Shown here: positions 18,201 through 34,800 of the stretch, in pieces
Numbering within the stretch: position 1 is the first letter of the stretch
Layout: every line of letters begins with the position of its first letter
Source of the DNA: a virus
Direction: 5' to 3' (one strand)
Length of the DNA stretch: 36,919 nucleotides
IMG/VR virus record: IMGVR_UViG_3300032240_000500
Location: 1 to 36,919 of that record
Made by a program: the position numbers and the translations under genes
Notes under the pieces: model-generated
Databases searched by the model: none
What the model was told of the DNA's origin: nothing
Seen by the model: the letters and a program-made list of their open reading frames with translations, nothing else

Positions 18201-19562
18201 GCTTATGGTAACGGAAGATTTGTTGCTCTTTCAACAAGTTCTGGAACAGTCACAGCTTACAGTATTACAGGTAAAGTATGGTATGCTGGCACATTGCCAG
18301 TAAGCACATCATGGACAAATATCTGCTACGGTCAAGGTGTATTCCTAGCGGTAACAAATTCAACTACAGCAGCTACATCTCAAGATGGCGTTAACTGGAC
18401 TTCAAGAACCATGAGCACAGCAGCCAGCGGATTCTCAGCAGCAGTTTTTGGTAATCCACAAAGATCTGGTAAGTTTGTAGCAGTTGGAGGCGGTACTGGA
18501 ACAGTGGCCAGTTACACCTATGCTGGAGCAAAAACTCGAGCTCGTGCATTTGTTTCAAGTGAGAAAATCACAGCAATTAGAATTCTAGAACCAGGTTCTG
18601 GATATGCTAGTGCTCCAACTATCACTATCACAGATCCTAACAACATTTTTGAAGCACCTACAACGGTTAGAATCGGTGATGGCGTATTGGGAATGCCAAG
18701 TCTCAAGAACAGAGGAATAGGATATCAAACATGTAGTGCAGAAATAGACAAAGGTGATGGCTATGCTGACTTCTTCCAAGACGGTGCTTATGTTGCTGTA
18801 CGTAGAATCAGTTCAAGACCAGCTGCAGGTTCTAACTTGGTATTTGCTGGTAAGGACATTACCTATAAAGTTGTTAGTGTTGTCAGTTTCCGAGGAGACT
18901 ATGACGGTTCCTATACCGCGTTCCTACAGATAAGTCCAACCATAAAGGTATATGACAATCTAGCAGATGGTACAGCAGTAACAGCTAGAATTCGTTACAG
19001 CCAAGTTCGACTAACAGGACATGACTTCTTGGATATTGGTACTGGAAGTTTCACAGAAACCAACTATCCATACACCCCATCTCAAGCTCCTATACAGGCC
19101 AATGAGACTGTAGAAGGCAACAGTGGTCGTGTGTTCTACACAAGTACAGACCAAGACGGTAACTTCCGTGTTGGAGCCTTGTTTACCATTGAACAGTCAA
19201 CTGGTGTTGCAACATTGAACGCTGACGCATTTAACTTGTCGGGTCTACAAGAAATTAGTTTGGGTAATTTGACATTGGGAGGTGCTAGTGCAAGGGTTCA
19301 AGAATTCTCAACAGATCCTTTCTTTACACAGAACTCAGACTCTGTTATTCCTACACAGCGAGCAATTAAAGCCTATATTGCCAGCCAAATTGGTGGCGGT
19401 GGTGCAAGTTTGATTGTTAACAGTGTTACAGCAGGGGATATTTTAATTGGTACAAATACAGTTACCAACGTTACTGGTGGTTCTATTATCATGGGATCAG
19501 TGGTTAATTTCACAGGCGGAGTTACAGGTTACCCGCTTGCAATCAGTTACTTCTTAAACTAA
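12294..19562 (+). CDS. Giant modular virion protein, second and longer paralogue
   Basis: A 2422-residue protein with the same architecture as its upstream neighbour. Seven WxxxxxYxxxDxVxYGGxxYxC repeats occupy residues about 6-395. The 600 extra residues lie mostly between the repeats and the core, where the helical RDxGxxIDA unit occurs four times (near 530, 839, 1081 and 1299) instead of once, interleaved with beta segments such as SAHGLTVGDTFVP. The conserved core (about 1349-1492) has LDPGWGPADFRTWITSRSPY and IDGSLHNGGNKSMVSNDFT. An Asp-box propeller follows at about 1795-2080 (SEDGITW, SADGITW, SGDGENW, STDGVTW, SITGKVW, SQDGVNW), then VFYTSTDQDGNFRVGALF near the end. GGAG precedes the ATG. 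It is probably a long fibre or whisker-like host-recognition protein. Confidence 0.85.
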   Translation: MAEFKLGRIRFVWKSDWTTGTTYYKDDVVQYGGKVFICIAGHTASAGFYTDLDAVPSKWNQMSDGFAWENDWAPGTAYKTNDMVKYGGRLYICRIPHTSAATLALGLEADLNLADSTLSKWDNVADGSDWKGAWTISTRYKVNDLVKYGGISYICNTYHTSAVSLALGLEADLNKWDVFNRGIEYKTAWTTVTRYKVNDVVKFGSTLYICTLFHTSSASFDLDIAYWSAFVEGLQFENTWSSATQYQPGDIVRYGGYQYVAKTTHTNSTPSTGTSNWDLFSKGFSFTAEWSSATSYKVGEVVSLGGNTYLCTVDHSNQSPPNASYWDKLSSGVNWRNYWANSTPYYVGDVVRYGSNAYICITKHTSNDDDSTTFADSTRSPSGDTEGVYWNIFNIGSEYSVMTDAGDMVYYNGNQGPARLPIGKEGMVLKVSANSKPMWDYLGVVDYTFYVAPHGQDLPAPTWGLTQDKPWKTIRYACMQIEDGARNPNAQYLLEMNRVFIQREVSEWIQYQIANNRSPFTSSFVYDEFKCERDVGFVIDRLIWDIGHGGNLKTLAAALSYINLLSGSTLYATAYDENGTGTYSKLAAQSTQDVASYNYMLTVIQSVLNNTAVAASYQTINGDNSTAILGQYFNTDLVAETGVYTTITSLVGIITKALTEQVATNLPSRYVPNNILNVKSGAWTEVLPIPVPAETSIVGDETRAVEVSADTGSVDITDSYATYTTFGRIGTVMGQIVAGTSVTRTTGNTATQSLYWPYASSAETTKISSLVDVMKYQADHRLGQMDAATMTDPTGYNTSYLIGYGYARKLIKENRKFLQEEVIAYLAANYPNSKYGKTKTRRDTGYIIDAMIYALTYGGNSLSVQAGLAYFDAEGSTNLIPASIKALTLASITFLKARMQSVATNSAVTPLQTTIPQFFDTAGSAAASTLIGTNVDIIYNLINGASTTAAPNITVTTITGTTTLATASAHGLTVGDTFVPRSTANGLTTGTKYYVVSVPLATTFTLALSYNGAAITTLTNGTGLTIVGDVVDTPAATNGVTTTTALITAYTTLTAQIPTIGTDAVTTVNTAYPTLSYSTTKTARDVAIVLEAVGFDFMFNSNYRTVKAAQAYLRANSVELYTTTNLKAATRLALTYAKTQAKANVGGDATAQARIETLMTLVDSVIFGAANEGDMCQSVYDDIYYANLQLERNRAFIAAEASAYIANTFKSAATATTVTTDVITVADTSWMRRNLAIEFTGTIPSGAGISTGVTYYVQNVVSSTTFTVATTRFASTANRVTLATKSGSWTVKMVYNSALCLRDVGYYIDAVKWDLVYSSNYKSRYVARYYANAVLGSQEEDFFYLRNGTGVKNMSLRGLNGQLTPENAYGTSRTTAGAYASLDPGWGPADFRTWITSRSPYIQNNATFGNAAIGQKIDGSLHNGGNKSMVSNDFTQLISDGIGAWITNNGRAELVSVFTYYSHIGYLAEAGGRIRGTNGNNSYGDFGSVAEGYDVTETAKTAIVDNKFQYKAVVGSITTDSSAIFAFEFDHAGNEYTEATYLVIGPGNFADVEQDEFRDDAVFQIRLIDNVDDSTAAPEADGNQGGSGYLTKNGTAQNGTLTSITLSAVDDQLSSAYIGMKIVITAGNGLGQYALINAYNSGTKIADVITEATGAAGWDHFVAGTPIQAPDSSSSYSIEPAVSFTAPTYSSTASTLPTSGTWSTVEYGDTSASYSSLTGTYSGSGVNARFTVVRNGSKYASITIDTAGTGYVRLETITILGTSLGGTTPANDLVITITSVSTLGAIQAFDTSGYGLGGRFVAIRSGSVIGATSEDGITWTTRTSLMPSGASWSAGAWGYFNDGSSLPGESSSRFVAVAGGSANTTGAWSADGITWTATSMNTSATWVDVCFGEGRFVAIASDSTTVRISGDGENWDSTGTLARTGYTCIAYGLGLYVAARSGSTIGAWSTDGVTWIEIAMPSSSSWNKIAYGNGRFVALSTSSGTVTAYSITGKVWYAGTLPVSTSWTNICYGQGVFLAVTNSTTAATSQDGVNWTSRTMSTAASGFSAAVFGNPQRSGKFVAVGGGTGTVASYTYAGAKTRARAFVSSEKITAIRILEPGSGYASAPTITITDPNNIFEAPTTVRIGDGVLGMPSLKNRGIGYQTCSAEIDKGDGYADFFQDGAYVAVRRISSRPAAGSNLVFAGKDITYKVVSVVSFRGDYDGSYTAFLQISPTIKVYDNLADGTAVTARIRYSQVRLTGHDFLDIGTGSFTETNYPYTPSQAPIQANETVEGNSGRVFYTSTDQDGNFRVGALFTIEQSTGVATLNADAFNLSGLQEISLGNLTLGGASARVQEFSTDPFFTQNSDSVIPTQRAIKAYIASQIGGGGASLIVNSVTAGDILIGTNTVTNVTGGSIIMGSVVNFTGGVTGYPLAISYFLN

Positions 19563-20893: not shown

Positions 20894-21706
20894 ATGGCAA
20901 CGTTACAGAGTACAGCCTTTAGCGGAACAACTAATACACTGACATTACCTTCAGGTACCACAGCTGAACGTCCAGCAAGTCCAGCTGAAGGCATGATTCG
21001 ATATAACACCACGCTACTAAGAGTAGAAGTTTTCATGAACAACTCTTGGGAAGATGCTGCAGATCCCGTGGCAAATACAAAATGTTATCTTCCTTTGTTT
21101 GGCACAGCAGACGGTGATATCACAGATACAGTATCTAGTGTGGTAGCCAATATCAGCGGTGGAACAAGAAACTATACACAAAGCAGCTATGCAGGTTTTC
21201 AAACTGGCACAGGTGACGCCTACGTTGATATCATGACACCGTTTATTAGAACACTTGATGGCAATCCATTCTGGACTATTGAATTCTGGCTGTATAAAAC
21301 AGGCGGTGTGGGCAGCTCAGCAGAAACTATGGTAGAACTTTGCCATTACACTAGAGGTTTATTATATAGAGCTAACGACAGTGACGGAACTAACAACTAT
21401 TGGAGAGGTAGTTCAATTAACCTAGGTACAACTACCAGCAACCAATGGGTACATCATGCAGTAGTTGGCTATGGCGCTAACATCAAGGTATTTAAAAACG
21501 GCACACAGGTAGCTGACACCATGAATGGTGTAGGTGTATCTAGATTCGCTGATCCTATAACCACAGGCGGTACAGATTATTGTCGCATCGGACGCTCGAA
21601 TCATACCACAGGACAGTATACCAATGGAACATTTAGAAAATTTAAAATCAGTAATAAAGCTAGATATCTAGCAAACTTTACTTCATCTACAGAATATCCC
21701 TTATAA
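20894..21706 (+). CDS. Fibre/adhesin protein with LamG-like lectin domain
   Basis: A 270-residue protein. Residues 15-55 carry the fibre module TLPSGTTAERPASPAEG then MIRYNTTLLRVEVFMNNSW. Residues about 65-270 look like a concanavalin A/LamG-type jelly roll: FWTIEFWLYKTG, a WVHHAVVGYG strand, IKVFKNGTQVADT and a final FRKFKISNKARYLANF, in the order normal for this fold. Such domains bind carbohydrates, so this is a good candidate receptor-binding protein. It starts three bases after the previous stop with AGGAT as ribosome site, so it is translated with the S74 fibre gene. The ligand cannot be predicted from sequence. Confidence 0.82.
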   Translation: MATLQSTAFSGTTNTLTLPSGTTAERPASPAEGMIRYNTTLLRVEVFMNNSWEDAADPVANTKCYLPLFGTADGDITDTVSSVVANISGGTRNYTQSSYAGFQTGTGDAYVDIMTPFIRTLDGNPFWTIEFWLYKTGGVGSSAETMVELCHYTRGLLYRANDSDGTNNYWRGSSINLGTTTSNQWVHHAVVGYGANIKVFKNGTQVADTMNGVGVSRFADPITTGGTDYCRIGRSNHTTGQYTNGTFRKFKISNKARYLANFTSSTEYPL

Positions 21707-21717
21707 GAGGTTAAGAA

Positions 21718-23613
21718 ATGGCAATTTTACAAAGTACGACAATTAGCGGAACAGGATACTTACAACTTCCAGTGGGAAGAACTGCTGATCGTCCTACCGC
21801 TCCTGCCTATACTGTAGTTCAATTTACCTCAACAGGCACATCAAACTGGACAGTTCCAGCCAACGTATATCGTGTGGATGTACTGGTTGTAGGTGGTGGT
21901 GGTGGTGGTGGTGCTTGGGTAGGTGGTGGTGGTGGTGCAGGTGGTGTTGTCTATCGTGAAGGATATGCTGTTACACCTGGACAATCTATCAGTTATACCG
22001 TGGGTGTTGGCGGAACAGGCGAATATAACCCAGGCAGCTATGGTGGTATGCCCCGTGCTACCAACGGCGGCCAGTCTGCATTTGGATCAATTACAGCACT
22101 AGGCGGCGGCTATGGCGGATCATGGAGCTCATTTCCAGCATCTTCGGGTGCAAGCGGTGGTGGCAACGGTTATAATTATGCAGGCGCAGCGGGTACACCA
22201 GGTCAAGGTTTTCCAGGCGGCCAAGGCCGCGGCGATGGTACCAATGGCTACCCAACAGGTGGCGGTGGCGGAGCTGGCGGCCCCGGCGGTTCGTGGCGTA
22301 TTGGTGGCTCAGGTGAAATTACCACAGGTTCTTGGGGACCAAACGGAAAATCAGGAGACGGCGGCCCAGGACTAGCCTATGATATTTCCGGTACACTGAC
22401 ATTCTACGGTGGTGGCGGTGGTGGCGGTATTCACGGAGCCAGTTCAGACGCTCGTCCTGGATTTGGCGGTATGGGCGGTGGCGGTGATGGCAACGGCCCG
22501 TCAACTACATTAGCTTCTTATCAAAACGCTCGTGCTAACACAGGTGGCGGTGGCGGTGGCGGTGGCTACAGCGGTGGATCACCTAGCTATGGTGGCGCAG
22601 GTGGCAGCGGAGTTGTTATTGTACGTTATGCCACAGCAGGCGGCATAAATGCTGAATTAAAACCAGGTGCTGTTAGACTTAACACACAACGAGGTCTTGA
22701 ATATTATGATTCTACAGGCCGTTGGGCAAATCTTTCTGTGCCATTCCACAGCAGAACTATTATCACTACAGGCTATCAGTCAGGCGGATACAAAGATGGT
22801 AGTGCATGGAACAATGTAAACAAAATACAGGCCGCAACAGATGTAACATATAATCTAGGTGACGGTTCTCTTGCAAGATCAATGAACTATCAAAGCGGTG
22901 CTTGCGGACAAAACATTGGTTGGGTATTTGGCGCAGGCAACGGTCATGCTGTTTCCAGTAACTATGTTCAAGGCTTCAACATGCGTACTGAACAGGCCTA
23001 TAATCCTGGAAATATCAATATGGCCAATAACCGAATCAATTCAGGAACTATTTTCCAAGAACACTACTTTGCTTGGACCACAGGAGGCGGTGCAGCAGCG
23101 GTTGAAGAATTTAACATGATGGTTGCTACCAGTCATACTAGTGCTTCTGGGGGCTGGAGTGCTACCAACCAATGGGGCATGAGTCACGAAAACTACGGAA
23201 TATTCTATTGGGAAGAAGATTCTAGAATTTGGCATTTTGCCGCGAGAACAGCAACGTCTACATTTGGCGGCCAGCCAAGTGCCTACCACCAACAGAAATC
23301 AGTTCAAAGTAAATATAGCAACTGTTATGCTGGTAACGAAGGCAGCTACAACGGCGGCAATAACCTACGTAGAAGCAATATGTATACAAGAACAACATCT
23401 GGCACAGTGGCTAAGCCAGTTACCAATAACGGGGAAGAAAACTTTACCATGGGTCAAGATTGGCAATACCTGCTAGGTGAATATAACGGAGCTCAAAACA
23501 ATAATGCTTGGAAATTCTATTATTCCACAGAAACAGGATATAGTGGTGGCTCAGATATGCAGCCAAAAGGGCATGCCGGATCAAGTTCCGGTACCTGCTT
23601 CTGGAGAAATTAA
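21718..23613 (+). CDS. Adhesin-like protein with polyglycine domain and duplicated head domain
   Basis: A 631-residue protein. It starts like its neighbours (MAILQSTTISGTGYLQLP, then RTADRPTAPA). From about residue 31 to 312 a glycine-rich domain follows, opening with WTVPANVYRVDVLVVGGGGG and containing many GGGGGG runs, of a type found in phage adhesins. The interrupted fibre module then resumes (PGAVRLNTQRGLEYYDSTG). Residues about 345-631 form a head domain shared with the next gene: TTGYQSGGYKDGSAWNNVNK, YNLGDGSLARSMNYQS and QPKGHAGSSSGTCFW. In T4-like phages glycine-rich adhesins (T2-type gp38) determine host range; similarity here is by composition only. AAGAGG precedes the ATG. Confidence 0.83.
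   Translation: MAILQSTTISGTGYLQLPVGRTADRPTAPAYTVVQFTSTGTSNWTVPANVYRVDVLVVGGGGGGGAWVGGGGGAGGVVYREGYAVTPGQSISYTVGVGGTGEYNPGSYGGMPRATNGGQSAFGSITALGGGYGGSWSSFPASSGASGGGNGYNYAGAAGTPGQGFPGGQGRGDGTNGYPTGGGGGAGGPGGSWRIGGSGEITTGSWGPNGKSGDGGPGLAYDISGTLTFYGGGGGGGIHGASSDARPGFGGMGGGGDGNGPSTTLASYQNARANTGGGGGGGGYSGGSPSYGGAGGSGVVIVRYATAGGINAELKPGAVRLNTQRGLEYYDSTGRWANLSVPFHSRTIITTGYQSGGYKDGSAWNNVNKIQAATDVTYNLGDGSLARSMNYQSGACGQNIGWVFGAGNGHAVSSNYVQGFNMRTEQAYNPGNINMANNRINSGTIFQEHYFAWTTGGGAAAVEEFNMMVATSHTSASGGWSATNQWGMSHENYGIFYWEEDSRIWHFAARTATSTFGGQPSAYHQQKSVQSKYSNCYAGNEGSYNGGNNLRRSNMYTRTTSGTVAKPVTNNGEENFTMGQDWQYLLGEYNGAQNNNAWKFYYSTETGYSGGSDMQPKGHAGSSSGTCFWRN
21892..21912 (+). repeat. GGT trinucleotide tract in adhesin gene
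   Basis: Seven GGT units in a row encode part of the first polyglycine run, and a second shorter GGT tract follows at about 21922-21936. Changes by whole units would keep the reading frame and alter glycine loop length. Confidence 0.85.
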
Positions 23614-24654
23614 ATGGCAATTCTAGCAAATAACACCACAATCAGCGGTACAGGATTTTTGCAACTTCCTGCAGACAACAGTCAAACCGGTAACACCAAC
23701 GGACAACTAAGATTTAATCCTACTCAAAACAAAATTGAGTGGTACAACTCAGGTACACAAAACGGTTGGACCTACTTTGGTATCCCGTTCCAAGCCAGAG
23801 ATGTTCAGGTCGCAGGTTATTTACATGGCGGCTATGCGGCATCAACAGTTTGGAACAACACCAATAGAATGACCTTTGCTACTGACACTTCAGTTAATCT
23901 AGGTGACGGTACGCAAGAAGCTGGACATAACTATCAAAGTAGTGCATTTAATCTAAGAAGAAACTTTACCTGGGGAGCTGGTGGTTCTCACTGTGCGCCT
24001 GCTAGCAACATCATCTGTTTTGACATGGTTACTGAGCAGGCCGTTACCAGCGGTTATACTCGAAACATGCCTGGTAATACACTTAACACTGGTACAATTC
24101 AGAAAGAACACTATTTTTCTTATCTCAGTCCTTATTCCTATCTAAGTGCGGCTATCTATGAATTCAACCTAACCACTGAAACACTGGGTACTACCTATGG
24201 CACAGGCGGTAATAATCAATGGGGAGCTTGGACTGAAAACTTTGGTATTTTCTATGGCGGTACTGAAAAGATTTTTAATTTTGCGTCAAGAACTGTTTAT
24301 GATCGTAGTGCTAGTACCGCACTAGCTGGAGATCCTTATCAACATAATATGCAGACCCGCCAGGCAACAACTATTGCTGGCCGTGAAGGCAATCCAAGTA
24401 CCAACTGGCGTATCACTAACTATCAAAACAATGCCAGCTACAATGCTATCGGCGCTAAACCTGCATATAGCGGTGAAGAAAATATGTTAAGTGCTAGAGA
24501 TTGGGCATACTGCATGGGTTTCTATAACGGAAGTCACGTTAATACAACCTACAAAGTTCAATTTGCAACTTGGAGTGGATTCGTTGGATCAAGCTCGATG
24601 GAACCAAAAGGCAAAAGTGGTAACAGTTCAGGAACAATGAGCTGGAGGCCTTAA
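23614..24654 (+). CDS. Fibre/adhesin protein sharing the head domain of its neighbour
   Basis: A 346-residue protein beginning directly after the previous stop (TAA then ATG), with GGAG at a good distance. Its N-terminus (ILANNTTISGTGFLQLPADN) and NGQLRFNPTQNKIEWYNSG module match the other fibre genes. The remaining 275 residues are paralogous to the head of the polyglycine protein: AGYLHGGYAASTVWNNTNRM, VNLGDGTQEAGHNYQSSAF, NQWGAWTENFGIFYGG and MEPKGKSGNSSGTMSW. It lacks the glycine domain. The repeated GGY and NFGIFYGG-like lines hint at a propeller or similar repeat fold, also known from other marine phage fibres. Probable receptor-binding or fibre tip protein; ligand unknown. Confidence 0.82.
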   Translation: MAILANNTTISGTGFLQLPADNSQTGNTNGQLRFNPTQNKIEWYNSGTQNGWTYFGIPFQARDVQVAGYLHGGYAASTVWNNTNRMTFATDTSVNLGDGTQEAGHNYQSSAFNLRRNFTWGAGGSHCAPASNIICFDMVTEQAVTSGYTRNMPGNTLNTGTIQKEHYFSYLSPYSYLSAAIYEFNLTTETLGTTYGTGGNNQWGAWTENFGIFYGGTEKIFNFASRTVYDRSASTALAGDPYQHNMQTRQATTIAGREGNPSTNWRITNYQNNASYNAIGAKPAYSGEENMLSARDWAYCMGFYNGSHVNTTYKVQFATWSGFVGSSSMEPKGKSGNSSGTMSWRP

Positions 24655-24686: not shown

Positions 24687-25538
24687 ATGACCGATCGCAG
24701 AATTCAGTACCACTCTGAAAGATATAACAGTGAAATTAACACAGACGTTTCTATGCTTTCAGAGCAAGAACAGAGCCTAGTTAAACTTGCACTAAACAAA
24801 GAATGGACCAACCCAAAGTTTAAATTGAAATGGTTTGTTGGACAAGCACAAATTACCCCGTTCGCTAAATTCCGCCAATGGCTACTGGAAATCAAAACCA
24901 AAGAAGAATCCATCGAAAACATGGAATATGAAATTGCCAAACACGAAGTTGAGTGTGAAAGATTTCAAAGACTACGTGATGAGGCTAGCGATGATTTAGA
25001 TAGAAAACTAGCAGAAATTGAGCTATGGAATAGACAACGTTTAAGCTATACCAGCAAACGTCGAATACAAGATTGGTATCTAGAAAGACAACACTTAATT
25101 GATCTTTGCAACGAATTTATGGCTTCCGAAGAAGCTAAACTGCCAGATGGTTCAGGAAGAACCTACATGGATGTTATGAACACCGCAGAAGAAGATGTCT
25201 ATGAAGCGCAGTATTGGACTAACAGATTGGCCAAGCAAGCGGCCTGCGATATGATTTTCTATGGTAGAATCAACAGCGGAAACATGGATGCCATCTTGAT
25301 GATGAATCCAGAACAGCAAGCAGAGACCATGGCATTGACTGTGAATTTTGCTACCAAGTTGCAAAGCTACCAACAACAACTACAGGTTAGTGCAGATGAT
25401 GCAGTGAGATCGTCACTGGGTATGGATATGAATTCGTTAACTACCCCTAAAGAAGAACCTGCTACACAAACATTATCAGTTGCTGATAATCAAAAGGAGA
25501 TTTTTGATGTATATAATTTACGAAACGATAGCCAGTAA
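24687..25538 (+). CDS. Helical, coiled-coil-rich protein of unknown function
   Basis: A 283-residue, highly charged and mostly helical protein. Residues about 65-150 are probable coiled coil (KEESIENMEYEIAKHEVE and RKLAEIELWNRQRLSY). The C-terminal 40 residues are polar and likely flexible. The N-terminus (RRIQYHSERYNSEI, then VSMLSEQEQSLVKLALNKEW) looks like a conserved phage protein but I cannot name a function. It has its own perfect late promoter and strong AAGGAG site, which marks it for separate regulation. Genes directly after fibre genes in T4-like phages often encode fibre assembly factors, so a chaperone role is possible, but this is inference from position. Confidence 0.75.
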   Translation: MTDRRIQYHSERYNSEINTDVSMLSEQEQSLVKLALNKEWTNPKFKLKWFVGQAQITPFAKFRQWLLEIKTKEESIENMEYEIAKHEVECERFQRLRDEASDDLDRKLAEIELWNRQRLSYTSKRRIQDWYLERQHLIDLCNEFMASEEAKLPDGSGRTYMDVMNTAEEDVYEAQYWTNRLAKQAACDMIFYGRINSGNMDAILMMNPEQQAETMALTVNFATKLQSYQQQLQVSADDAVRSSLGMDMNSLTTPKEEPATQTLSVADNQKEIFDVYNLRNDSQ

Positions 25539-26040
25539 CGATCCAAGGAGATCTCCTGGCATTAGAGACTTTGGCGCATTTTGGCACTATACAGTAGCCG
25601 AAGTTGCACCAGGCACACACGTTGATTGGCTTAAGGGTCAGGAAGTTTCAGAAGCTGTGGCCAAGGTATGGATCCTAGTGACTTCAGTTAACGGTGAAAT
25701 AACTGTGCTGAAATCAAAAGTAGATTCTTATGCAGAAATTATTCTGCCAAGCAGTGGCGGAAATACTGATTACTATAAAGAAACTTATTTCTTAACTGAT
25801 ACGGATAAAACTCTAGCAAAAAATTTCCTAGGAACAGTATTAAAGATAGAAGCTAAAAATAAACTTAGCACAGATGGAATGAAAAATCCTGCTGACACAT
25901 TAACTAGATTAAATCAGGTAATTGACAATACCCAAACGCTAAATGACATGCAGATGGTTATGAAAAATTATTTTGATGTTGATTGCAGTGCTTATACTGT
26001 AGGCCAACCAAAAAATCCAGCATTTACAGTAAACTGGTAA
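25507..26040 (+). CDS. Unknown protein coupled to the coiled-coil gene
   Basis: A 177-residue protein that I do not recognise. The ATG at 25507 is preferred over an in-frame ATG at 25480 because AGGAG at 25496-25500 fits it and the protein then starts MYIIYETIASND, a natural soluble N-terminus. It overlaps the end of the upstream gene by 32 bases in another frame, which implies translational coupling. The N-terminal half is beta-prone (FGAFWHYTVAEVAPGTHVDW, EVSEAVAKVWILVTSVNGEI), and the C-terminal half is helical with a DTLTRLNQVIDNTQTLNDMQ segment. No signal peptide or catalytic motif is evident. It is the last gene before the enzyme cassette. Confidence 0.7.
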   Translation: MYIIYETIASNDPRRSPGIRDFGAFWHYTVAEVAPGTHVDWLKGQEVSEAVAKVWILVTSVNGEITVLKSKVDSYAEIILPSSGGNTDYYKETYFLTDTDKTLAKNFLGTVLKIEAKNKLSTDGMKNPADTLTRLNQVIDNTQTLNDMQMVMKNYFDVDCSAYTVGQPKNPAFTVNW

Positions 26041-26103: not shown

Positions 26104-27780
26104 ATGAGAAAAATATTCAGCGTTCCGTTAAACCCAAAATTAAATCAAGCACAATTTAAAGAATTCTGTGAATTTCTATTTCAATATAAAGATTATATTA
26201 GAGATGTCTACTTCACAAGTCGAATAAAGCCCTTTGTACAAGATGCAATGGGTGATGTTTTTCTTTTAGAAGAATATCACCTTAGTATTATAGAATCTGC
26301 CCTGTACATACAGAATGCACTAGGCATACCTGTTAGTGCTACATTTAACAATATTGAAGTTCCGGCAACACAGCAAAACTTAGATATCTTTATTTCTAAT
26401 TTCAAACCCCTATATGATGCCGGTGTACGAAATGCAACAATTCCTCATACCCATTGGATGGCCACTGGCCAGATCAAACGGGCATTTCCTGAATTGTATG
26501 TAAAAAATACAATCCTAAGAGAAGTACACTCGGCACAAGAAGTAGTAAATCTTGCAGGATATGGATTTGACTATGTTAACCTTGATCGTGATCTAATGCG
26601 AGATAAGGATGCATTACTGGCAATTAAAAAAGCTAAAGCATACATTAAAGAAACCATGGGCAAGGATATTGCCATCAGCCTATTGGCTAACGAAGGCTGT
26701 GTTGGCGGATGCAGCATGATGGTAGAACATTTTCAATTTAACAACAACAGATCAGTTAACAATCCGCAATACTTTAATGATCCAATAAGCCGAATTAGCT
26801 GTAAAAAATGGGAAGTAGATGATCCTGCAACATCACTAAAAACAGCTAACTTTCCACCGTGGCGAGCTGACTGGGATGAGTTTATTGATGAACTGGGCAT
26901 TGACAGTATCAAGATGCACGGCCGCGAGGCAATAAGTCGACTGTACGAAACCATGCAGATTATTAAAAATTATGCAGAAGGCAAAGAAATTTTATTTTCT
27001 GGGTTTGAACAATATCTAGAAGATACGAATCTTGTAGAAAAACCTATTAATATATGGCGTGAAAAAATTCGCAATTGCAAATTTGAATGTTGGGATTGCC
27101 AATACTGCGATAAAATCTACAACAAAAAATCAAACATGCATTACTCCGAGCTAGTTAAACATACTGCCCAAGCAATTGCAGATTCTGGTGTACCCACAGT
27201 TAGGTTAGGTGTTCCTGGACTAACCAGCCCTCGGGTAGAAACATTGTTAAATTCCTTGGCTCAGGGAATCAATACTTACTTAGAAGTAGGAGCAGCAATG
27301 GGCGCAACATTCTGCGCTACAATTAAAAACAATCCCATCCATGCTATTGCTGTTGACAACTGGAAACAAAATATTCAGCCTGTTAGATCTGCAGAACTAG
27401 GTACACTACCAGAAAATTCTGTTCAACAGTTTATTGAAAATGTTAAAAAACACAAGGGTCAAGCGACTGTAGATATTCTAAACGGAGATTTATTCTCAGC
27501 AGATGTTTCTAGATTTTCTACTAATATAGAAATGTTTTTCTATGACGGTCCTCACGACTTTGAAAGTACAAAACGTGCCGTGCTACACTACTATCCTGTG
27601 CTAGCAGATGAATGTATTATCATCTTCGATGATGCAAATTGGAAACCAGTTGTGGAAGGCGCACAGGCAGGCTTACAACAAGTAAATGCAACTATTGTAT
27701 TTGAAAAGATGATGCTTAATTCTTTAGAAAATCCTAACGAGTGGTGGAACGGTCTTTATATTGTGGTGATAAGAAAGTGA
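26104..27780 (+). CDS. U32-like iron-sulphur protein fused to a SAM-dependent methyltransferase
   Basis: A 558-residue two-domain protein. Residues 1 to about 345 resemble the U32 (YhbU/UbiU/RlhA) family: FSVPLNP at the start, VNLDRDLMRDKDALLAIKKA (158-177), ISLLANEGCVGGC (191-203) and IKMHGRE (269-275). Possible [4Fe-4S] ligands are C199, C203, C233 and members of C325/C329/C332/C335. U32 relatives hydroxylate RNA bases or ubiquinone precursors without O2, despite the old peptidase name. Residues about 385-558 look like a class I methyltransferase: YLEVGAAMGATF (392-403), IAVDNW, FFYDGPHDFESTKRAV (478-493) and IIIFDDANW. It lacks an obvious Shine-Dalgarno, starts a six-gene overlapping cassette, and probably modifies one substrate twice or feeds the downstream enzymes. 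Confidence 0.78.
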   Translation: MRKIFSVPLNPKLNQAQFKEFCEFLFQYKDYIRDVYFTSRIKPFVQDAMGDVFLLEEYHLSIIESALYIQNALGIPVSATFNNIEVPATQQNLDIFISNFKPLYDAGVRNATIPHTHWMATGQIKRAFPELYVKNTILREVHSAQEVVNLAGYGFDYVNLDRDLMRDKDALLAIKKAKAYIKETMGKDIAISLLANEGCVGGCSMMVEHFQFNNNRSVNNPQYFNDPISRISCKKWEVDDPATSLKTANFPPWRADWDEFIDELGIDSIKMHGREAISRLYETMQIIKNYAEGKEILFSGFEQYLEDTNLVEKPINIWREKIRNCKFECWDCQYCDKIYNKKSNMHYSELVKHTAQAIADSGVPTVRLGVPGLTSPRVETLLNSLAQGINTYLEVGAAMGATFCATIKNNPIHAIAVDNWKQNIQPVRSAELGTLPENSVQQFIENVKKHKGQATVDILNGDLFSADVSRFSTNIEMFFYDGPHDFESTKRAVLHYYPVLADECIIIFDDANWKPVVEGAQAGLQQVNATIVFEKMMLNSLENPNEWWNGLYIVVIRK

Positions 27781-28379
27781 TAGATAAAGTTTTCAGCGTT
27801 CCAGTATATCAAGATCTTGTTTCAAATAAATCAGCAATAGATCAAGAAATAGCCTTGGCGTTAACAAATTCAGAATTTGCCAATGTATGGCAACCTGATA
27901 ATGATACTGCAAATACCACATTCATACCCGGTAAACAGGCTAACATTCTAGCCAAACATCAATTAAAGGCCACTGTAATTGAAATTGTTAGACATGCCAA
28001 CGCATATCTAGAAGGCACCGGTCAGCCTTACAAGAAAAATTCCGTTAAAATTGATCAATCCTGGCTAAACACCTTTGAGGATAATCAATTAATTGGATTG
28101 CACGAACACGGATATCAGCCAAATACAATCAGCGGTGTTTATTATCATAAGGCTCCACAGAATTGCGGAAGGTTAATTCTTAAAAATCACAATCCATTTG
28201 TAGTGAGTTTTCCGCATCAGTCGCAGGAATTTTTTAACCTAGTAAATATTGAACCAGAAGAAGGACTAGTAGTATTCTTCCCAAGCTGGTTGATGCACAA
28301 AGTAGAACCAAACAAAACCAAAGAGACTCGTGTTTCTTTGTCTTTTAATATTTCTTTTGATTATACATTTTATGAATAG
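27777..28379 (+). CDS. 2-oxoglutarate/Fe(II)-dependent oxygenase
   Basis: A 200-residue protein of the short 2OG-Fe(II) oxygenase family common in T4-like phages. The GTG at 27777 is chosen because it overlaps the previous stop (GTGA) and gives the usual start IDKVFSVPVYQ. An ATG at 27741 lies inside the previous gene. Key features are LIGLHEHGYQPNTISGVYYH with H109 and H111, GRLILKN, and EEGLVVFFPSWLMHKVEPN with H174, then R185 in RVSLSFN. H174 and R185 fit the distal iron ligand and the 2-oxoglutarate-binding arginine; the proximal ligands are H109/H111, and no clear HxD carboxylate is visible. Such enzymes hydroxylate or desaturate small molecules or side chains; the substrate is unknown. 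Confidence 0.88.
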   Translation: MIDKVFSVPVYQDLVSNKSAIDQEIALALTNSEFANVWQPDNDTANTTFIPGKQANILAKHQLKATVIEIVRHANAYLEGTGQPYKKNSVKIDQSWLNTFEDNQLIGLHEHGYQPNTISGVYYHKAPQNCGRLILKNHNPFVVSFPHQSQEFFNLVNIEPEEGLVVFFPSWLMHKVEPNKTKETRVSLSFNISFDYTFYE

Positions 28380-29895
28380 AATACAAAAAATCACTATATT
28401 TGGCGGCGGAACTAGCGGATGGTTAACAGCAGCTTACCTAGCCAATAATGTAAAAATACCTGTTGAGATTACTCTAATTGAAGATACAAGTCTTGGGCCA
28501 ATAGGAGTAGGTGAAGGTACACAACCATTAACAGCACAATTCTTATATCAATGCGGCCTACATCCGCAACAATGGATGAAGCCGAGTAATGCAGCTTTTA
28601 AATTTGGAGTTGAATTAGTAGGTTGGAATGACGAACCTTATTTTGTTGACAACGATGCTATTCAAAGTTCTTTCGTTGCAGAAGGTGTCTATGCAAGCGA
28701 TTATTTTATTAGACGTCCTCATAAAGAATTTACAGATTTTCATCCAGCATACCAACTAGCCAAAGCTAATCTAAGTCCAAAAATGGTAGAACATCTAGAT
28801 GTTAATTTTGGATCAAATCTAGAAGCATTTGGTGCAGTCCATTTTTCAGCATATGAAATTTTAGACGCTCTTAAAAATCTCATAGGAGATAAAATCAAAC
28901 ATGTTGATACTAGAATTAAGAGTGTTGAAAAGGACATGTATGGAATCACAAAACTAATTGATGAATCAGGTACAGCTTACACCTCAGATCTGTTTATAGA
29001 TTGTAGTGGATTTAGTTCTATTCTTTTAGAAAAAACTCTAGGAGTTCCATTCACATCCTACGATAAATGGCTACCAAATGACCGTGCAGTAGTAATGCCT
29101 AAACAGTATACTGACCCAGAAAAAGAATGTTTTCCATATACTCGAGCAACTGCAATGACAGCCGGTTGGAGATTTACAATTCCTATCTACACTCGTATAG
29201 GCAACGGCTATGTTTACAGCAGTAAATTTATCTCTGATGAAGATGCAGAAAAAGAGCTACGTGAAGCAATAGGCGAATATGATGCCCCTGCAAAGTTTTT
29301 AAAAATGAAATGTGGGTACCATAAAGAGATTGCTGTAAAGAATGTAGTAGCAGTAGGACTTAGCGCAGGCTTTGTTGAGCCATTAGAAGCCACAGGTATT
29401 ACATTTACTACAGCCGTAGTTAAATCTATTGCTGACTTGTTAAATTTGAATAAAAATATTTGGAACAATCAGACTAGAGATTTGTTAAATGGCGGTTTCT
29501 ACGAAATGTCTATGGAAATTTTAGCCTTTGTTTGGGCACACTATCATTTTTCAACCAAGGCCGATACTCCATTCTGGCAAGAAATAAGACAACAACAAAT
29601 CAAAGATCTGCCTGAAGACGTACAAACTATTCTTAGTTTTTATTATCCGCAACCTGGACGATTCTTGTTTTTAAGGCCAAGTTCAATGTTCAACAATGCT
29701 CAATGGTTCAGTATGTTGCATGCCGGTGGCGCATATAAAGATATTGAAATTCCTCATAGACCCTATGAAACAGAATATATAAAATATTTTATTGATGTTC
29801 AAAATTATAGAGTCAAACAGGCAAAACTTAATTTTAAAAATCACTATAGATACCTAGACGATTGGTATAACAATAAACTGTTTGGAGAAAAATAA
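28372..29895 (+). CDS. Flavin-dependent halogenase (tryptophan halogenase family)
   Basis: A 507-residue protein of the tryptophan-halogenase family, which uses FADH2, O2 and halide to halogenate electron-rich carbons. ATG at 28372 is chosen over 28330 because the FAD-binding start should be near residue 10. Motifs: GGGTSGW (11-17), the family loop GVGEGTQPLT (45-54), NAAFKFGVEL with K77 aligning with the catalytic lysine of PrnA, W266-R-F-T-I-P271 in place of WxWxIP (second Trp is Phe), YVYSSKF, and GLSAGFVEPLEATGI (329-343) with E339 at the conserved glutamate. The start overlaps the oxygenase stop by eight bases. No flavin reductase is present, so FADH2 must come from the host. A viral halogenase (VirX1 of cyanophage Syn10) is known; substrate and preferred halide here are unknown. 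Confidence 0.9.
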   Translation: MNRIQKITIFGGGTSGWLTAAYLANNVKIPVEITLIEDTSLGPIGVGEGTQPLTAQFLYQCGLHPQQWMKPSNAAFKFGVELVGWNDEPYFVDNDAIQSSFVAEGVYASDYFIRRPHKEFTDFHPAYQLAKANLSPKMVEHLDVNFGSNLEAFGAVHFSAYEILDALKNLIGDKIKHVDTRIKSVEKDMYGITKLIDESGTAYTSDLFIDCSGFSSILLEKTLGVPFTSYDKWLPNDRAVVMPKQYTDPEKECFPYTRATAMTAGWRFTIPIYTRIGNGYVYSSKFISDEDAEKELREAIGEYDAPAKFLKMKCGYHKEIAVKNVVAVGLSAGFVEPLEATGITFTTAVVKSIADLLNLNKNIWNNQTRDLLNGGFYEMSMEILAFVWAHYHFSTKADTPFWQEIRQQQIKDLPEDVQTILSFYYPQPGRFLFLRPSSMFNNAQWFSMLHAGGAYKDIEIPHRPYETEYIKYFIDVQNYRVKQAKLNFKNHYRYLDDWYNNKLFGEK

Positions 29896-30308
29896 TGTTA
29901 GGTGAATTAAATGTAGGCGAGTATACTATATGGACTCAAGAAATCCGTCAAGTTAAAGATCCATATACTGCACGTAAACTTCAGAAAGATAGAAAAAAAT
30001 TAAAAATTTGGATGAATGCTCTATTGGCAAATAGAGATTTAATTGTATTTCACATACATGAAGGTGTAGAAACCATGAGTGTTTTAACAAAAAAACATGG
30101 AGGAGATGACTTAGCCGACGCTCCTATTAGTGCAGAGCAGATTGGCTACGATACATACCTTGTAGTTAATTACATAATGGCCAACGAGTGGCCAACCCTA
30201 AGACCTATAGCGATCCATGTAGACGACATAACTAAATTTATGTCTCGCTCGGGCGGCACAACTGAAATTAGTAATAAAATAAATTGGTTTGGTCATGGAC
30301 ACAATTGA
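29895..30308 (+). CDS. Unknown protein coupled to the halogenase
   Basis: A 137-residue protein I do not recognise. Its ATG shares a base with the halogenase stop (TAATG), so it is translationally coupled. The N-terminal third is a charged helix (DPYTARKLQKDRKKLKIWMN), followed by a strand and His-containing segment (LIVFHIHEGVETMSVLTKKH). The C-terminal part has PTLRPIAIHVDDITKFMSRS. It has no signal peptide, membrane helix or clear catalytic motif, although several His residues could bind metal. Tight coupling to an enzyme suggests an accessory or partner role in the same pathway; this is inference from arrangement. Confidence 0.72.
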   Translation: MLGELNVGEYTIWTQEIRQVKDPYTARKLQKDRKKLKIWMNALLANRDLIVFHIHEGVETMSVLTKKHGGDDLADAPISAEQIGYDTYLVVNYIMANEWPTLRPIAIHVDDITKFMSRSGGTTEISNKINWFGHGHN

Positions 30309-31026
30309 ATTCTTCACATCGGCACCCGGCCTATCGGAAATGTTTCCTATCATCTCTGCAAGCGAATGCAGAGCAGACTGGATGACAGCCGCTAAAAATG
30401 ACTATGTTCAAAATAAAGAACGTTTTTCAAAATCTAGAAGCACACATTTATTTCAATGTCCTGGAATTTTTGATCTAAACAATCACGGATTTATTGTTCC
30501 TCTATGGCACGATCTAATTATTAAAACAGACAGCAAGGAACGATTTACATGGACTATACCTTCCGGTGCATTAAATTCCTATAGAGGAAAAGATGTAGTA
30601 GGAACACACAAACCAGGACTTGACAAATTTATACCTAAACGTCCATGGAGTCTAAATCAAGTGGTAAAATTAGATACCCCTTGGAACATTGTTGCTCCAA
30701 AAGGAGTAAAATTTTTAATTATACCCTTGGCTTACCCCGATGATTTTACCTTTGAAAGTTGCATAGGTATATTGGATCCAGCTATCAGCACAGAAGTAAA
30801 CATACAATTATATTGGAATGTAATGCAAGGAGAAACACTGCTCAAAGCCGGTACGCCTCTTTGCCAACTAATACCGTTAACAGAAAAAAAGTATGAGCTG
30901 ATAGTTAGAGAAATGACAGCTAGTGATAAGTTCTGGCTTGAAAAACGTAACTTGTTTATGAGCATGTTCTTTCGAGGAAATAGAAATATCATAAAAGAAA
31001 TGTACCATAAGCATTTTAAAAAATGA
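30295..31026 (+). CDS. Conserved marine-phage protein of unknown function
   Basis: A 243-residue protein starting MDTIEFFTSAPGLSEMFPI. The second of two close ATGs (30295) is chosen because it gives the family-like start; 30289 is also possible. The pattern HLFQCPGIFDLNNHGFIVPL, then APKGVKFLIIPLAYP and GTPLCQLIPL, is one I recognise as a widespread hypothetical family in marine phages, often near oxygenases and other tailoring enzymes, though without an established activity. The body looks beta-rich with a short helical C-terminus. It overlaps the previous gene by 14 bases. The conserved CPGIFD and GTPLCQLIP lines suggest a defined active or binding site rather than a structural role; unproven. 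Confidence 0.78.
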   Translation: MDTIEFFTSAPGLSEMFPIISASECRADWMTAAKNDYVQNKERFSKSRSTHLFQCPGIFDLNNHGFIVPLWHDLIIKTDSKERFTWTIPSGALNSYRGKDVVGTHKPGLDKFIPKRPWSLNQVVKLDTPWNIVAPKGVKFLIIPLAYPDDFTFESCIGILDPAISTEVNIQLYWNVMQGETLLKAGTPLCQLIPLTEKKYELIVREMTASDKFWLEKRNLFMSMFFRGNRNIIKEMYHKHFKK

Positions 31027-31352
31027 ATTTTAAACCAACTCCGTTTTTAGGATTTTTTACACCGCAGGGCAGACTGTATTCTACATACGCCGAATTAAAA
31101 GAAATATTCGGCCGACCCTATTTTGGACCCGGTAGAGAAGCCAATCCGGCAATAGATAGGTCATTAAATAGAGTCAGCTGTCAATGGCGTATAAAATTCG
31201 AAGACAATACCATTGCTATAATACACGACGATCGTCAAAAAGACACAAACCTAGGTTTTTATCAATGGTTTATTTCTGGAGACTCAGGAAGAGCTGCAAT
31301 TTTAGTTAAAGAGATAGTAGAAAGTCATCGCAAAAATAAGGTAAATACTTGA
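31023..31352 (+). CDS. Small conserved phage protein, last gene of the enzyme cassette
   Basis: A 109-residue protein whose ATG overlaps the previous stop (ATGA). The line TYAELKEIFGRPYFGPGREA followed by VSCQWRIKFEDNTIAIIHDD and FYQWFISGDSGRAAILVKEI resembles a small hypothetical family of T4-like marine phages whose members often modify or accompany other phage proteins, but no function is known to me. The fold appears alpha/beta with a Trp-rich C-terminal half. There is no membrane or export signal. As the last overlapping gene it belongs to the same transcript as the halogenase; the following structural gene has its own start signals. Confidence 0.75.
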   Translation: MNFKPTPFLGFFTPQGRLYSTYAELKEIFGRPYFGPGREANPAIDRSLNRVSCQWRIKFEDNTIAIIHDDRQKDTNLGFYQWFISGDSGRAAILVKEIVESHRKNKVNT

Positions 31353-31372: not shown

Positions 31373-32848
31373 ATGACTGTAAAAACCAATACACTTTTTA
31401 ACCTTGTAAGGTTCGCTCCTAGCGAGGGAGCCTACTTAGATAGAAAACTTGGATCTCGAGGAGAACTTTTCTTTGATAGAGATGCCGAGACCCTAAGACT
31501 TTACAATGGTAAAGACACTGGTGGTATTATTCTAGCAAGAAATGATCTAAACGGTATCAATTCTGCAGCCTTAAAACAGGCAGTAATTAACACAAAAATA
31601 GCCACAGTTACCTATACAACAACTATCACAGGTCCTCAGGGAAACGATTCAGGTAACAAATATAATTTTAACGGTATTTACAAACCTGTATTAAATTTTG
31701 TAACCGGCTATACCTACGTATTTGATCAAAGCAATGACACTAATGTCTATTACCCTAATGCCAACGGTACTACACAAAACAGACATCCTTTAAATTTTTC
31801 CGCTGACAACCTAAGCGGAGTTCGAGGTGGCGGCACAGCCTATACTACTAATGTAATATACAAACTAGACGGCGTAGTTGTAACTTATGCAGTTTACAAT
31901 AGCGTGGCATTTGATAATGCTAATACACGCACGGTACAGATTACCGTAACTAATGCAACGCCAGCAGTATTGTACTATTGGTGTTACAATCACCTAAATA
32001 TGGGCAATGAAATTGCCGTTGCTGATCCCGGATCTGGAACAGGTCAAACTTCAGTATCAGTAGGTGCAACGGTGCCCGATGAACCCGAATCTGGAAATTT
32101 ATGGCTAGACACTAACACTGGATTTTTATATGTTTACATTGATGATGGCACATCGACTCAATGGATGCAACCATCCTATCCACAGCCAAACATAGGAAAT
32201 ATTTCTTTTGATGTTACAACCATCGACACTACAGATTCGTCATCTATAACATTTCAACCTGCCGTTGTATTCAATAGTGATGTCACTGTCGAAAATGATC
32301 TAAGAATTAGAAGTAATCTTGTGGCAACTCAAGCCTATGTAGATCTAGCAGTAGCCGGAGTTGTTGTGGGCGCATTAAATATCAACCCTGCAACTATTGG
32401 ATTAGGAAACGTTACCAACGAATCCAAAGCCACAATGTTTACGGCTCCAACATTCACTGGAAACATAACACTCAACGGTGCTACAGTTCTACAACAGACA
32501 TCTGAAGTTTTAAACACCAAGACTGGAGCAACGGGAACTGTTGTTCATGACTTTTCAACTGGTGCAGTGTGGTATCACAGTTCAATGTCTGCTGATTTTA
32601 CAGCAAATTTTACCAACGTCCCAACCGCTGACAACAAGGCAATTTCAATAGTTTTAATTCTAAACCAAGGTGCTTCCGGCGCCTATGCTACTGCGGTGCA
32701 GATTGATGGCGCTGCCCAAACAATAAAATGGTTGGCTGGAGTTTCTCCTACTGTGTCAGTTAACAAGGTTGACATATTGAGTTTTACATTGATTAGAACA
32801 GGTTCTGCATGGACAGTATTAGGCAGCATGAGTTCATACGGAGCATAA
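31373..32848 (+). CDS. Structural protein with cupredoxin-like domain
   Basis: A 491-residue modular protein. Residues 10-55 carry a fibre N-terminal motif (APSEGAYLDRKLGSRGELFF, then LRLYNGKD). Residues about 80-215 resemble a cupredoxin: a TYVFDQSNDTN strand, NRHPLNFSAD with H138, and YYWCYNHLNMGNEI with C204, H207 and M210, the ligand set and CxxHxxM spacing of a type 1 copper site. A GNLWLDTNTGFLYVYIDDG segment follows, then LVATQAYVDLAVAG, and a beta-rich C-terminal domain (about 385-491) with LNTKTGATGTVVHDFSTGA. This suggests a fibre or baseplate-associated protein; copper binding is a prediction. It directly follows the enzyme cassette. Confidence 0.78.
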   Translation: MTVKTNTLFNLVRFAPSEGAYLDRKLGSRGELFFDRDAETLRLYNGKDTGGIILARNDLNGINSAALKQAVINTKIATVTYTTTITGPQGNDSGNKYNFNGIYKPVLNFVTGYTYVFDQSNDTNVYYPNANGTTQNRHPLNFSADNLSGVRGGGTAYTTNVIYKLDGVVVTYAVYNSVAFDNANTRTVQITVTNATPAVLYYWCYNHLNMGNEIAVADPGSGTGQTSVSVGATVPDEPESGNLWLDTNTGFLYVYIDDGTSTQWMQPSYPQPNIGNISFDVTTIDTTDSSSITFQPAVVFNSDVTVENDLRIRSNLVATQAYVDLAVAGVVVGALNINPATIGLGNVTNESKATMFTAPTFTGNITLNGATVLQQTSEVLNTKTGATGTVVHDFSTGAVWYHSSMSADFTANFTNVPTADNKAISIVLILNQGASGAYATAVQIDGAAQTIKWLAGVSPTVSVNKVDILSFTLIRTGSAWTVLGSMSSYGA

Positions 32849-33930: not shown

Positions 33931-34800
33931 ATGCCAATTAATTTTCCATCATCGCCAAACACCAACGACACGTATACATCGGGCGGTTCTACTTGGATTT
34001 ATACAGGAACTGTTTGGAATGTAGTAGGGTCAACTTCGCAGGTTACACTTACTCCAACAAATAGTTTTACCACAATTGCCGTAGCAGGACAAAGTAATGT
34101 TGTTGCAGACAATGCTACAGATACACTGTCGTTAATTGCAGGATCAAACATTACCATCACAACAGATGCTCAGACTGATTCTATAACTATTAATTCAACT
34201 GCATCGGGTGGCGGAGGTGGAGGCTCTAGTAATAGTTTTGCTACTATTGCTGTAGCAGGACAAAGTAATGTTGTTGCAGATAGTGACACTGATACATTAA
34301 CATTAGTTGGCGCAGGCAATACTACAATTACCACCAATGCTAGTACTGATACGATTACTATTTCTAGTACAGGCGGAACATCAACATTCTCTGCTTTAAC
34401 AGAAGTAACAACCGCCAATCTAGCCTTTGATCAAATCTATCTACCAGCAATCACTACATTGGTAGTTACCAATTCTGGAGCAGTTTCGTATTTGTTTGAT
34501 CAGTATTCAGGTAGCAATCCGACTATATATGCTATTGGCGGCCTAACCATAGCATTTAAATTACAGTGTGCAGGACATCCTTTTCTTATACAAGATGGTA
34601 CCGGTACAAACTACAATACCGGATTAGTTCATGTATCTAGTAGCGGTACTGTTAGTTCTGGATCAAATGCTCAAGGGCAGGTTAATGGAACACTATACTG
34701 GAAAGTTCCTGCTAGCATCTCCGGCGGTTACAGATATCAATGCTCTTTACATCCAGTTATGGTAGGAGCAATTACCGTTAAAAATATTGTTAGCCTTTGA
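33931..34800 (+). CDS. Structural protein with tandem repeats and C-terminal cupredoxin-like domain
   Basis: A 289-residue protein. The N-terminus (INFPSSPNTNDTYTSGGSTW) is a common phage fibre motif. Residues about 44-90 and 101-147 are two copies of a 47-residue repeat (each with IAVAGQSNVVAD), joined by a run of six glycines. Residues about 165-289 look like a cupredoxin: LQCAGHPFLIQDG with H216, and YQCSLHPVMVGAITV with C271, H274 and M277; the CxxHPxM spacing is the same as in amicyanin-type blue copper proteins. An AGGATA precedes the ATG. Copper binding and any redox role in a virion are inference. The stop overlaps the convergent gene on the other strand. Confidence 0.8.
   Translation: MPINFPSSPNTNDTYTSGGSTWIYTGTVWNVVGSTSQVTLTPTNSFTTIAVAGQSNVVADNATDTLSLIAGSNITITTDAQTDSITINSTASGGGGGGSSNSFATIAVAGQSNVVADSDTDTLTLVGAGNTTITTNASTDTITISSTGGTSTFSALTEVTTANLAFDQIYLPAITTLVVTNSGAVSYLFDQYSGSNPTIYAIGGLTIAFKLQCAGHPFLIQDGTGTNYNTGLVHVSSSGTVSSGSNAQGQVNGTLYWKVPASISGGYRYQCSLHPVMVGAITVKNIVSL

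Follow-up and report, generated by a model that had tools for sequence, protein, structure and literature searches.

Phage halogenases and multiple 2-oxoglutarate (2OG) oxygenases have been known for more than ten years, and we found no paper that names a natural substrate for them. In bacteria, the RTX activator HlyC is a modification enzyme (an acyltransferase) that is encoded beside type 1 secretion genes. VirX1, the flavin-dependent halogenase of cyanophage Syn10 (PDB 6qgm), has been reviewed with no native substrate given (PMC8407142), and 2OG-Fe(II) oxygenase and PrnA genes of cyanophages are reported as auxiliary metabolic genes in the parts of PMC3037559 and PMC10452541 covered here. 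The B. subtilis yrrMNO operon pairs U32 hydroxylases with the O-methyltransferase TrmR, and its TrhP/TrmR pair hydroxylates and O-methylates tRNA U34 (PMC6599085). We compared these systems with a cassette of six plus-strand genes, P1 to P6 (Table 1), in IMG/VR record IMGVR_UViG_3300032240_000500, a marine T4-like phage fragment of 36,919 nt; this whole stretch is called the window, and all positions are window positions. The core of the cassette recurs as a unit behind phage tail genes, and may serve to modify the phage's own tail adhesin.

The pieces are of known kinds, as VirX1-type halogenases and cyanophage 2OG and prnA genes have been published. P3, the window halogenase, belongs to the same Pfam family as VirX1, which it matches at E 1e-57, and is 32% identical to Syn9 gp42. 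In Syn9 and Syn10 the halogenase is followed by a homologue of P5 (33% identity), and in Syn9 2OG genes come after it as well; the window gene, however, sits in a unit with P1, which the Syn9 locus lacks. The reported cyanophage genes are of the same families as those in the window, but in the covered parts of those papers they figure one by one as metabolic genes; neither a joint unit with P1 and P5, anchored to tail genes, nor an occurrence outside cyanophages is described there. P1, a barrel fused to an O-methyltransferase, would share with TrhP/TrmR the logic of U32-type hydroxylation followed by O-methylation, and has a similar methyltransferase fold; it differs in being a single polypeptide, in having no U32 profile match, in its cysteine pattern and in its tail or secretion neighbours. 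Cellular homologues of the P1 barrel resemble the HlyC arrangement, in which the gene of a modifying enzyme lies directly by a TolC/ABC/HlyD exporter and an RTX protein; among HlyC-type enzymes we know of neither a U32-like barrel nor a halogenase. New are the fusion that makes up P1, the anchoring of a fixed unit to tail genes, the occurrence of this unit also in contigs that have no psbA, and the rare cellular homologues of the P1 barrel by secretion and export genes. Our literature search turned up no account of the conserved unit, of P1 as a fusion, of P1 relatives in cells or of tail fibres with modifications, and nothing relevant on tail-fibre halogenation or hydroxylation; subscription journals were mostly uncovered, and novelty is unproven.

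Scans of IMG/VR yielded 33 loci with P3 and 80 with P1, in which all open reading frames were clustered. After near-duplicate removal 58 P1 loci remained, 56 of them with 4.5 kb of downstream sequence. The recurring order is a phrog_1417 tail protein, U24, U25, P1, an optional 2OG gene, the halogenase, usually a 2OG gene, P5 and P4, continuing with an optional second P5 and more 2OG genes before tail-fibre or other genes are reached. About 50 other contigs carry the unit, at 54-82% identity. Upstream of P1, the tail gene of the phrog_1417 family, U24 and U25 are present in every one of the 52 loci with enough sequence. The halogenase lies no more than three genes from P1 in 48 of the 56 loci, and these 48 almost always have a 2OG gene (47 loci), with P5 in 42 and P4 in 33. 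None of the eight halogenase-free loci has a 2OG gene or P4, and one has P5. We found no psbA in ten large P1-bearing contigs from IMG/VR, of which seven also carry the halogenase, the completeness of these contigs being unknown; this argues against cyanobacterial hosts, without excluding them, and suggests that the unit is independent of cyanophage photosynthesis.

Within the window the genes overlap by 4 (P1/P2), 8 (P2/P3), 1 (P3/P4), 14 (P4/P5) and 4 (P5/P6) bases over positions 26104-31352, exactly as originally predicted; elsewhere overlap lengths shift by a few bases between loci, and overlaps are common throughout. They are not an assembly error, because the near-identical contigs 3300032332_000351 and 3300032233_000422 carry the same cassette. 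Nor are the genes scattered among relatives, where order and overlaps are kept and loci that lack the halogenase lack the 2OG genes and P4 too. The idea of a dedicated tailoring set, inherited together and free of scaffold-building enzymes, is supported, while the boundaries first drawn around it need revision. P1, the halogenase, at least one 2OG gene, P5 and often P4 are conserved; P6, of which there are three distinct sequences, is confined to the nearest relatives and is probably outside the unit, and the constant upstream neighbours U24 and U25 (24687-26040) had been left out. In some relatives, a J-domain protein (L062:13704-13958, cluster c35), read from its sequence, follows the cassette, and a DUF401-like protein follows P1 or the cassette at L109:9685-10635, L070:15220-16257 and in their relatives.

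Isolated phages carry related arrangements. GenBank has P1, under the name T4-GC 354, in 123 phage records, every one of a cyanophage, and the gene usually adjoins the U24 homologue T4-GC 353; halogenases are found in 82 phage records. Downstream of tail genes, Syn9, S-RIM44, P-TIM40 and S-CREM1 have a run of halogenase, P5 homologue and 2OG genes without P1; S-WAM1 has a halogenase and 2OG run with no recognised P5. The Syn9 run includes one gene with a JmjC_2 domain, and the versions in Syn9, P-TIM40 and S-RIM44 sit after Gly-rich fibre proteins. The run in S-CREM1 (L147, 3302-12001) comprises a collagen-like protein, the halogenase, the P5 homologue, at least seven 2OG genes and a JmjC gene.

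P1 (558 aa) matches phrog_1458 across its length (E 9e-166), and its C end matches Methyltransf_24 (PF13578; E 7e-11, 43.4 bits against a curated cut-off of 26.3). Its predicted structure consists of a barrel and an O-methyltransferase, with a mean predicted local distance difference test score (pLDDT) of 77 and poorly modelled cysteine loops. Over 212 residues the barrel model aligned with U32 structure 5d88 (Z 15.5), and MTHFR scored about as well (Z 15.1). The methyltransferase model gave Z scores of 16-17 (best 16.9) to small-molecule and tRNA O-methyltransferases, TrmR among them at 16.1; the best fold matches are small-molecule and sugar O-methyltransferases. At the sequence level, the Peptidase U32 profile (PF01136) did not hit the window at E <= 1 but did hit control genomes, and hhalign gave E. 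coli TrhP a probability of only 25%, although TrhP and RlhA ranked first and second among ten proteins. Because the profile does not match and the hhalign probability is low, despite this ranking, we describe the barrel as U32-like and not as a member of U32; the same label in the original prediction holds as a guess at the fold, in that the predicted barrel aligns with 5d88, and fails against the profile. Seven cysteines are invariant across viral and cellular members of the P1 family, and their spacing is unlike that of the cysteines which bind an Fe-S cluster in U32. A radical S-adenosylmethionine reading of the C-x3-C-x2-C motif was rejected, as BioB reached an hhalign probability of just 0.7.

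The match of P3 to Trp_halogenase (PF04820) is strong (E 2e-93, 314 bits, curated cut-off 21). The GxGxxG glycines and Lys77 are kept in 85 of 85 relatives and Glu339 in 81 of 85; the WxWxIP motif reads WRFTIP in the window, and its second W is replaced by F in 32 of the 85. Since no Flavin_Reduct gene was found in the window or in the ten large contigs, FADH2 for the halogenase would have to come from the host, where a reductase could serve. P2 matches 2OG-FeII_Oxy_5 (E 3e-21, 76.1 bits against a cut-off of 27) and TIGR02466 (75.7 against 62.5), and in its family His121, His123 and His186 are kept in 98 of 98 members and Arg197 in 97. The canonical HxD/E...H metal triad was not found in this family, whose motif is H-x-H...H...R, a form that we take to be usual within PF13759; with H-x-H rather than H-x-D, 2OG activity should not be taken for granted from the sequence. 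P5 matches phrog_7084 (E 7e-41), and its model aligns with the dUTPase fold (Z 10.7 over 132 residues; Foldseek E 7e-4); the Asp within a GILDP segment is nearly invariant, and other nucleotide-binding motifs were sought by eye only. The earlier statement that all recognisable activities functionalise C-H bonds or methylate omits this protein, a dUTPase-like fold with no assigned chemistry. Pfam identities for P5 relatives were discarded as chance-level matches, profile searches of the PDB with P4 and P5 gave nothing below E 0.3, and P4 and P6 had no meaningful match in the family libraries (Pfam, NCBIfam, phrog). The six genes had no Pfam or NCBIfam match to a scaffold or precursor of the nonribosomal peptide synthetase, polyketide synthase or ribosomally synthesised and post-translationally modified peptide kinds, no search having been aimed at short precursor peptides.

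Searching GTDB genome contigs with P1 turned up six barrels that stand alone, without the methyltransferase. In Sulfurimonas (L131) and Campylobacteraceae (L133) the barrel gene is directly followed by TolC-type, ABC-exporter and HlyD genes, and the Desulfocapsa copy (L132) has the C-terminal part of an RTX calcium-binding repeat protein on one side and the ABC exporter on the other. On a contig of another Sulfurimonas (L135 and L144) the barrel keeps company with two kinase-like genes and with Trp halogenase, SecA-like, M50-HlyD, HlyD and TolC genes, possibly a locus for the maturation and export of a bacterial surface protein. These four export contexts, few as they are, all point to surface protein export and not to RNA or small-molecule metabolism. 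The barrel of a Cloacimonadota bin (L130), which may be viral, has dCTP-deaminase-like and DNA-ligase genes nearby. Barrel homologues are rare: in samples of two phyla they occur in 3 of 397 genomes and in 1 of 395, and we found no P1 relatives on plasmids. A separate 4-kb contig (L145, G355:C27) has two tandem distant homologues of the barrel, about 540 aa, with the cysteine motifs kept in the one whose sequence was inspected (L141).

We give an even chance to the explanation that the cassette carries out post-translational tailoring of the phage's own tail adhesin or fibre, the receptor-binding protein. The original prediction had proposed four substrates, namely a host metabolite, a surface molecule, an RNA base or a virion residue; among these the genome context favours a virion adhesin protein, because constant tail genes lie upstream in phages and type 1 secretion or SecA/HlyD export genes lie by the P1 homologues in bacteria. 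A surface protein is preferred because tail adhesins in phages and adhesin-type export in cells are the company that the two settings have in common. From gene order, families, conserved catalytic residues, co-inheritance and these neighbours, we infer the following steps. The P1 barrel would hydroxylate a site, as TrhP, RlhA and UbiU/UbiV do, and the fused O-methyltransferase would cap the new hydroxyl; the fusion itself suggests hydroxylation and then O-methylation at one site, as with TrhP/TrmR on tRNA U34. Hydroxylation of other side chains would fall to the 2OG-Fe(II) oxygenases. The halogenase, drawing on marine halide and on FADH2 supplied by a host reductase, would attach a halogen to exposed Trp or Tyr, and P5 and P4 might serve as helpers in substrate binding or assembly. 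The 2OG enzymes, of which a locus can have several, and its one or two halogenases would thus act on further residues. The benefit may be a harder tip that better resists proteases, or changed receptor binding. More tentatively, and short of an even chance, we propose that a widespread group of T4-like phages finish their receptor-binding tail proteins by halogenation, hydroxylation and O-methylation, with a core enzyme shared with bacterial RTX-type surface-protein export, as a new class of adhesin maturation in viruses and bacteria. The tail-anchored unit and the bacterial homologues by type 1 secretion genes make the substrate question directly testable. If adhesin tailoring is confirmed, viruses can improve their attachment proteins by chemistry after translation; attempts to predict host range from sequence would be affected, and such phages would be a source of protein-directed halogenases.

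The cassette might instead tailor a small molecule or a glycan of the host, be it a metabolite, a lipid or a surface glycan. Such decoration could, for instance, keep out superinfecting phages or change the chemistry of the host, and the place beside tail genes would reflect no more than late-gene expression. Characterised flavin-dependent halogenases, including VirX1, are tested in assays with free or small aromatic substrates (PMC8407142), the best methyltransferase fold matches of P1 are small-molecule and sugar O-methyltransferases, and a DUF401-like membrane protein (cluster c17, phrog_14035) follows P1 in the halogenase-free clade. We nevertheless consider this unlikely, given the lack of a scaffold enzyme, the tail anchoring in 52 of 52 loci, and cellular P1 homologues that adjoin protein secretion genes rather than metabolic clusters. 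Those same secretion neighbours argue against modification of RNA or the ribosome in favour of late translation, in which P1 would act like TrhP plus TrmR (ho5U and then mo5U in tRNA) or like RlhA, and 2OG or JmjC enzymes on ribosome components. The pairing in the B. subtilis operon, the TrmR score and the top hhalign ranks of TrhP and RlhA favour that account; with hhalign weak, PF01136 unmatched and no tRNA gene in the window, it is decidedly unlikely, and we know of no RNA halogenase. Late-operon hitch-hiking, by which independent host-takeover enzymes share a transcript for timing only, would fit the relatives of the halogenase and P1 that are found at other sites, but is more doubtful still in view of the conserved order, the joint absence and the parallel linkage of P1 barrel and halogenase at a bacterial export locus. 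A signalling role for 2OG was proposed from the 2OG genes of most cyanophages (Sullivan et al. 2010, PMC3037559), and on that model the 2OG enzymes would draw down 2OG and shift host nitrogen signalling, with the other genes as passengers. We hold this to be very improbable, because it does not account for the constant association of halogenase, P1 and P5, for their absence as a group, or for the cassette contigs without psbA.

Several observations count against adhesin tailoring. A late-operon position alone could explain the tail adjacency, and the DUF401-like protein would suit a small molecule. Halogenase relatives adjoin SbcC in S-B64 and lie between terminase subunits in HTVC008M, another halogenase relative (57% identity) directly precedes a phage DNA polymerase gene away from tail genes (L029-L033), and P1 of S-ShM2 has no tail neighbours; the tail association is therefore strong in the relatives of the window and not universal. 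The sequence evidence for a U32 relationship is weak, both in hhalign and in the PF01136 search. Among the cellular homologues, which amount to six contigs of metagenome-assembled genomes, one barrel (L134) adjoins genes that look by eye like CRISPR Csm genes. One point in favour of the module is limited in what it shows: in 39 loci the distance matrices of P1, halogenase, P5, U24 and U25 correlate with one another (r 0.75-0.89), which indicates only that the parts were not shuffled independently of the tail genes, and vertical descent would give the same.

Table 1. Positions of the cassette genes and of neighbouring genes in the window.
Feature	Positions	Strand	Remarks
P1: U32-like Cys-rich barrel (~1-350) fused to class I O-methyltransferase (~365-558)	26104..27780	+	phrog_1458
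P2: 2OG-Fe(II) oxygenase	27777..28379	+	GTG start; PF13759, TIGR02466
P3: flavin-dependent halogenase	28372..29895	+	ATG start; PF04820
P4: conserved small protein, no family	29895..30308	+	
P5: dUTPase-superfamily fold protein	30295..31026	+	ATG start; phrog_7084
P6: lineage-specific small protein	31023..31352	+	
U24: phrog_1409 (T4-GC 353) protein	24687..25538	+	upstream of P1
U25: protein without family	25507..26040	+	upstream of P1; 32-base overlap with U24
Tail protein with Laminin_G_3 (ConA-like lectin) domain	20894..21706	+	candidate substrate
Gly_rich_2 and phrog_1417 tail adhesin	21718..23613	+	candidate substrate
phrog_1417 tail protein	23614..24654	+	candidate substrate
Baseplate/tail-fibre protein downstream of cassette	31373..32848	+	

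The left end of the window encodes the major head protein (phrog_138), and the genes before the cassette include two giant tail fibres and lectin and glycine-rich tail proteins, with baseplate and tail-fibre proteins after it. As to possible substrates, collagen was rejected in the window, where Gly-X-Y runs in the tail proteins do not exceed five triplets, and a Gly-rich adhesin at every locus was rejected with only 18 of 40. The giant fibres, at 6783-12251 and 12294-19562, bear 5 and 7 CBM_5_12 (chitin/cellulose-type) modules. Among 20 relatives, all 14 contigs with a halogenase have 4-16 copies of CBM_5_12 and six large halogenase-free contigs have none. We did not retain these modules as a general substrate, since the contig contrast sets one clade against all others and does not hold in isolates: no CBM accompanies the halogenase of Syn9, S-RIM44 or HTVC008M, and a CBM match (E <= 0.001) was found in four of nine isolates with a halogenase against one of six without. 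Two tail proteins beyond the cassette, at 31373-32848 and 33931-34800, have no Pfam match to this effect and by eye carry the cupredoxin-like ligand patterns YWCYNHLNMG and YQCSLHPVMV.

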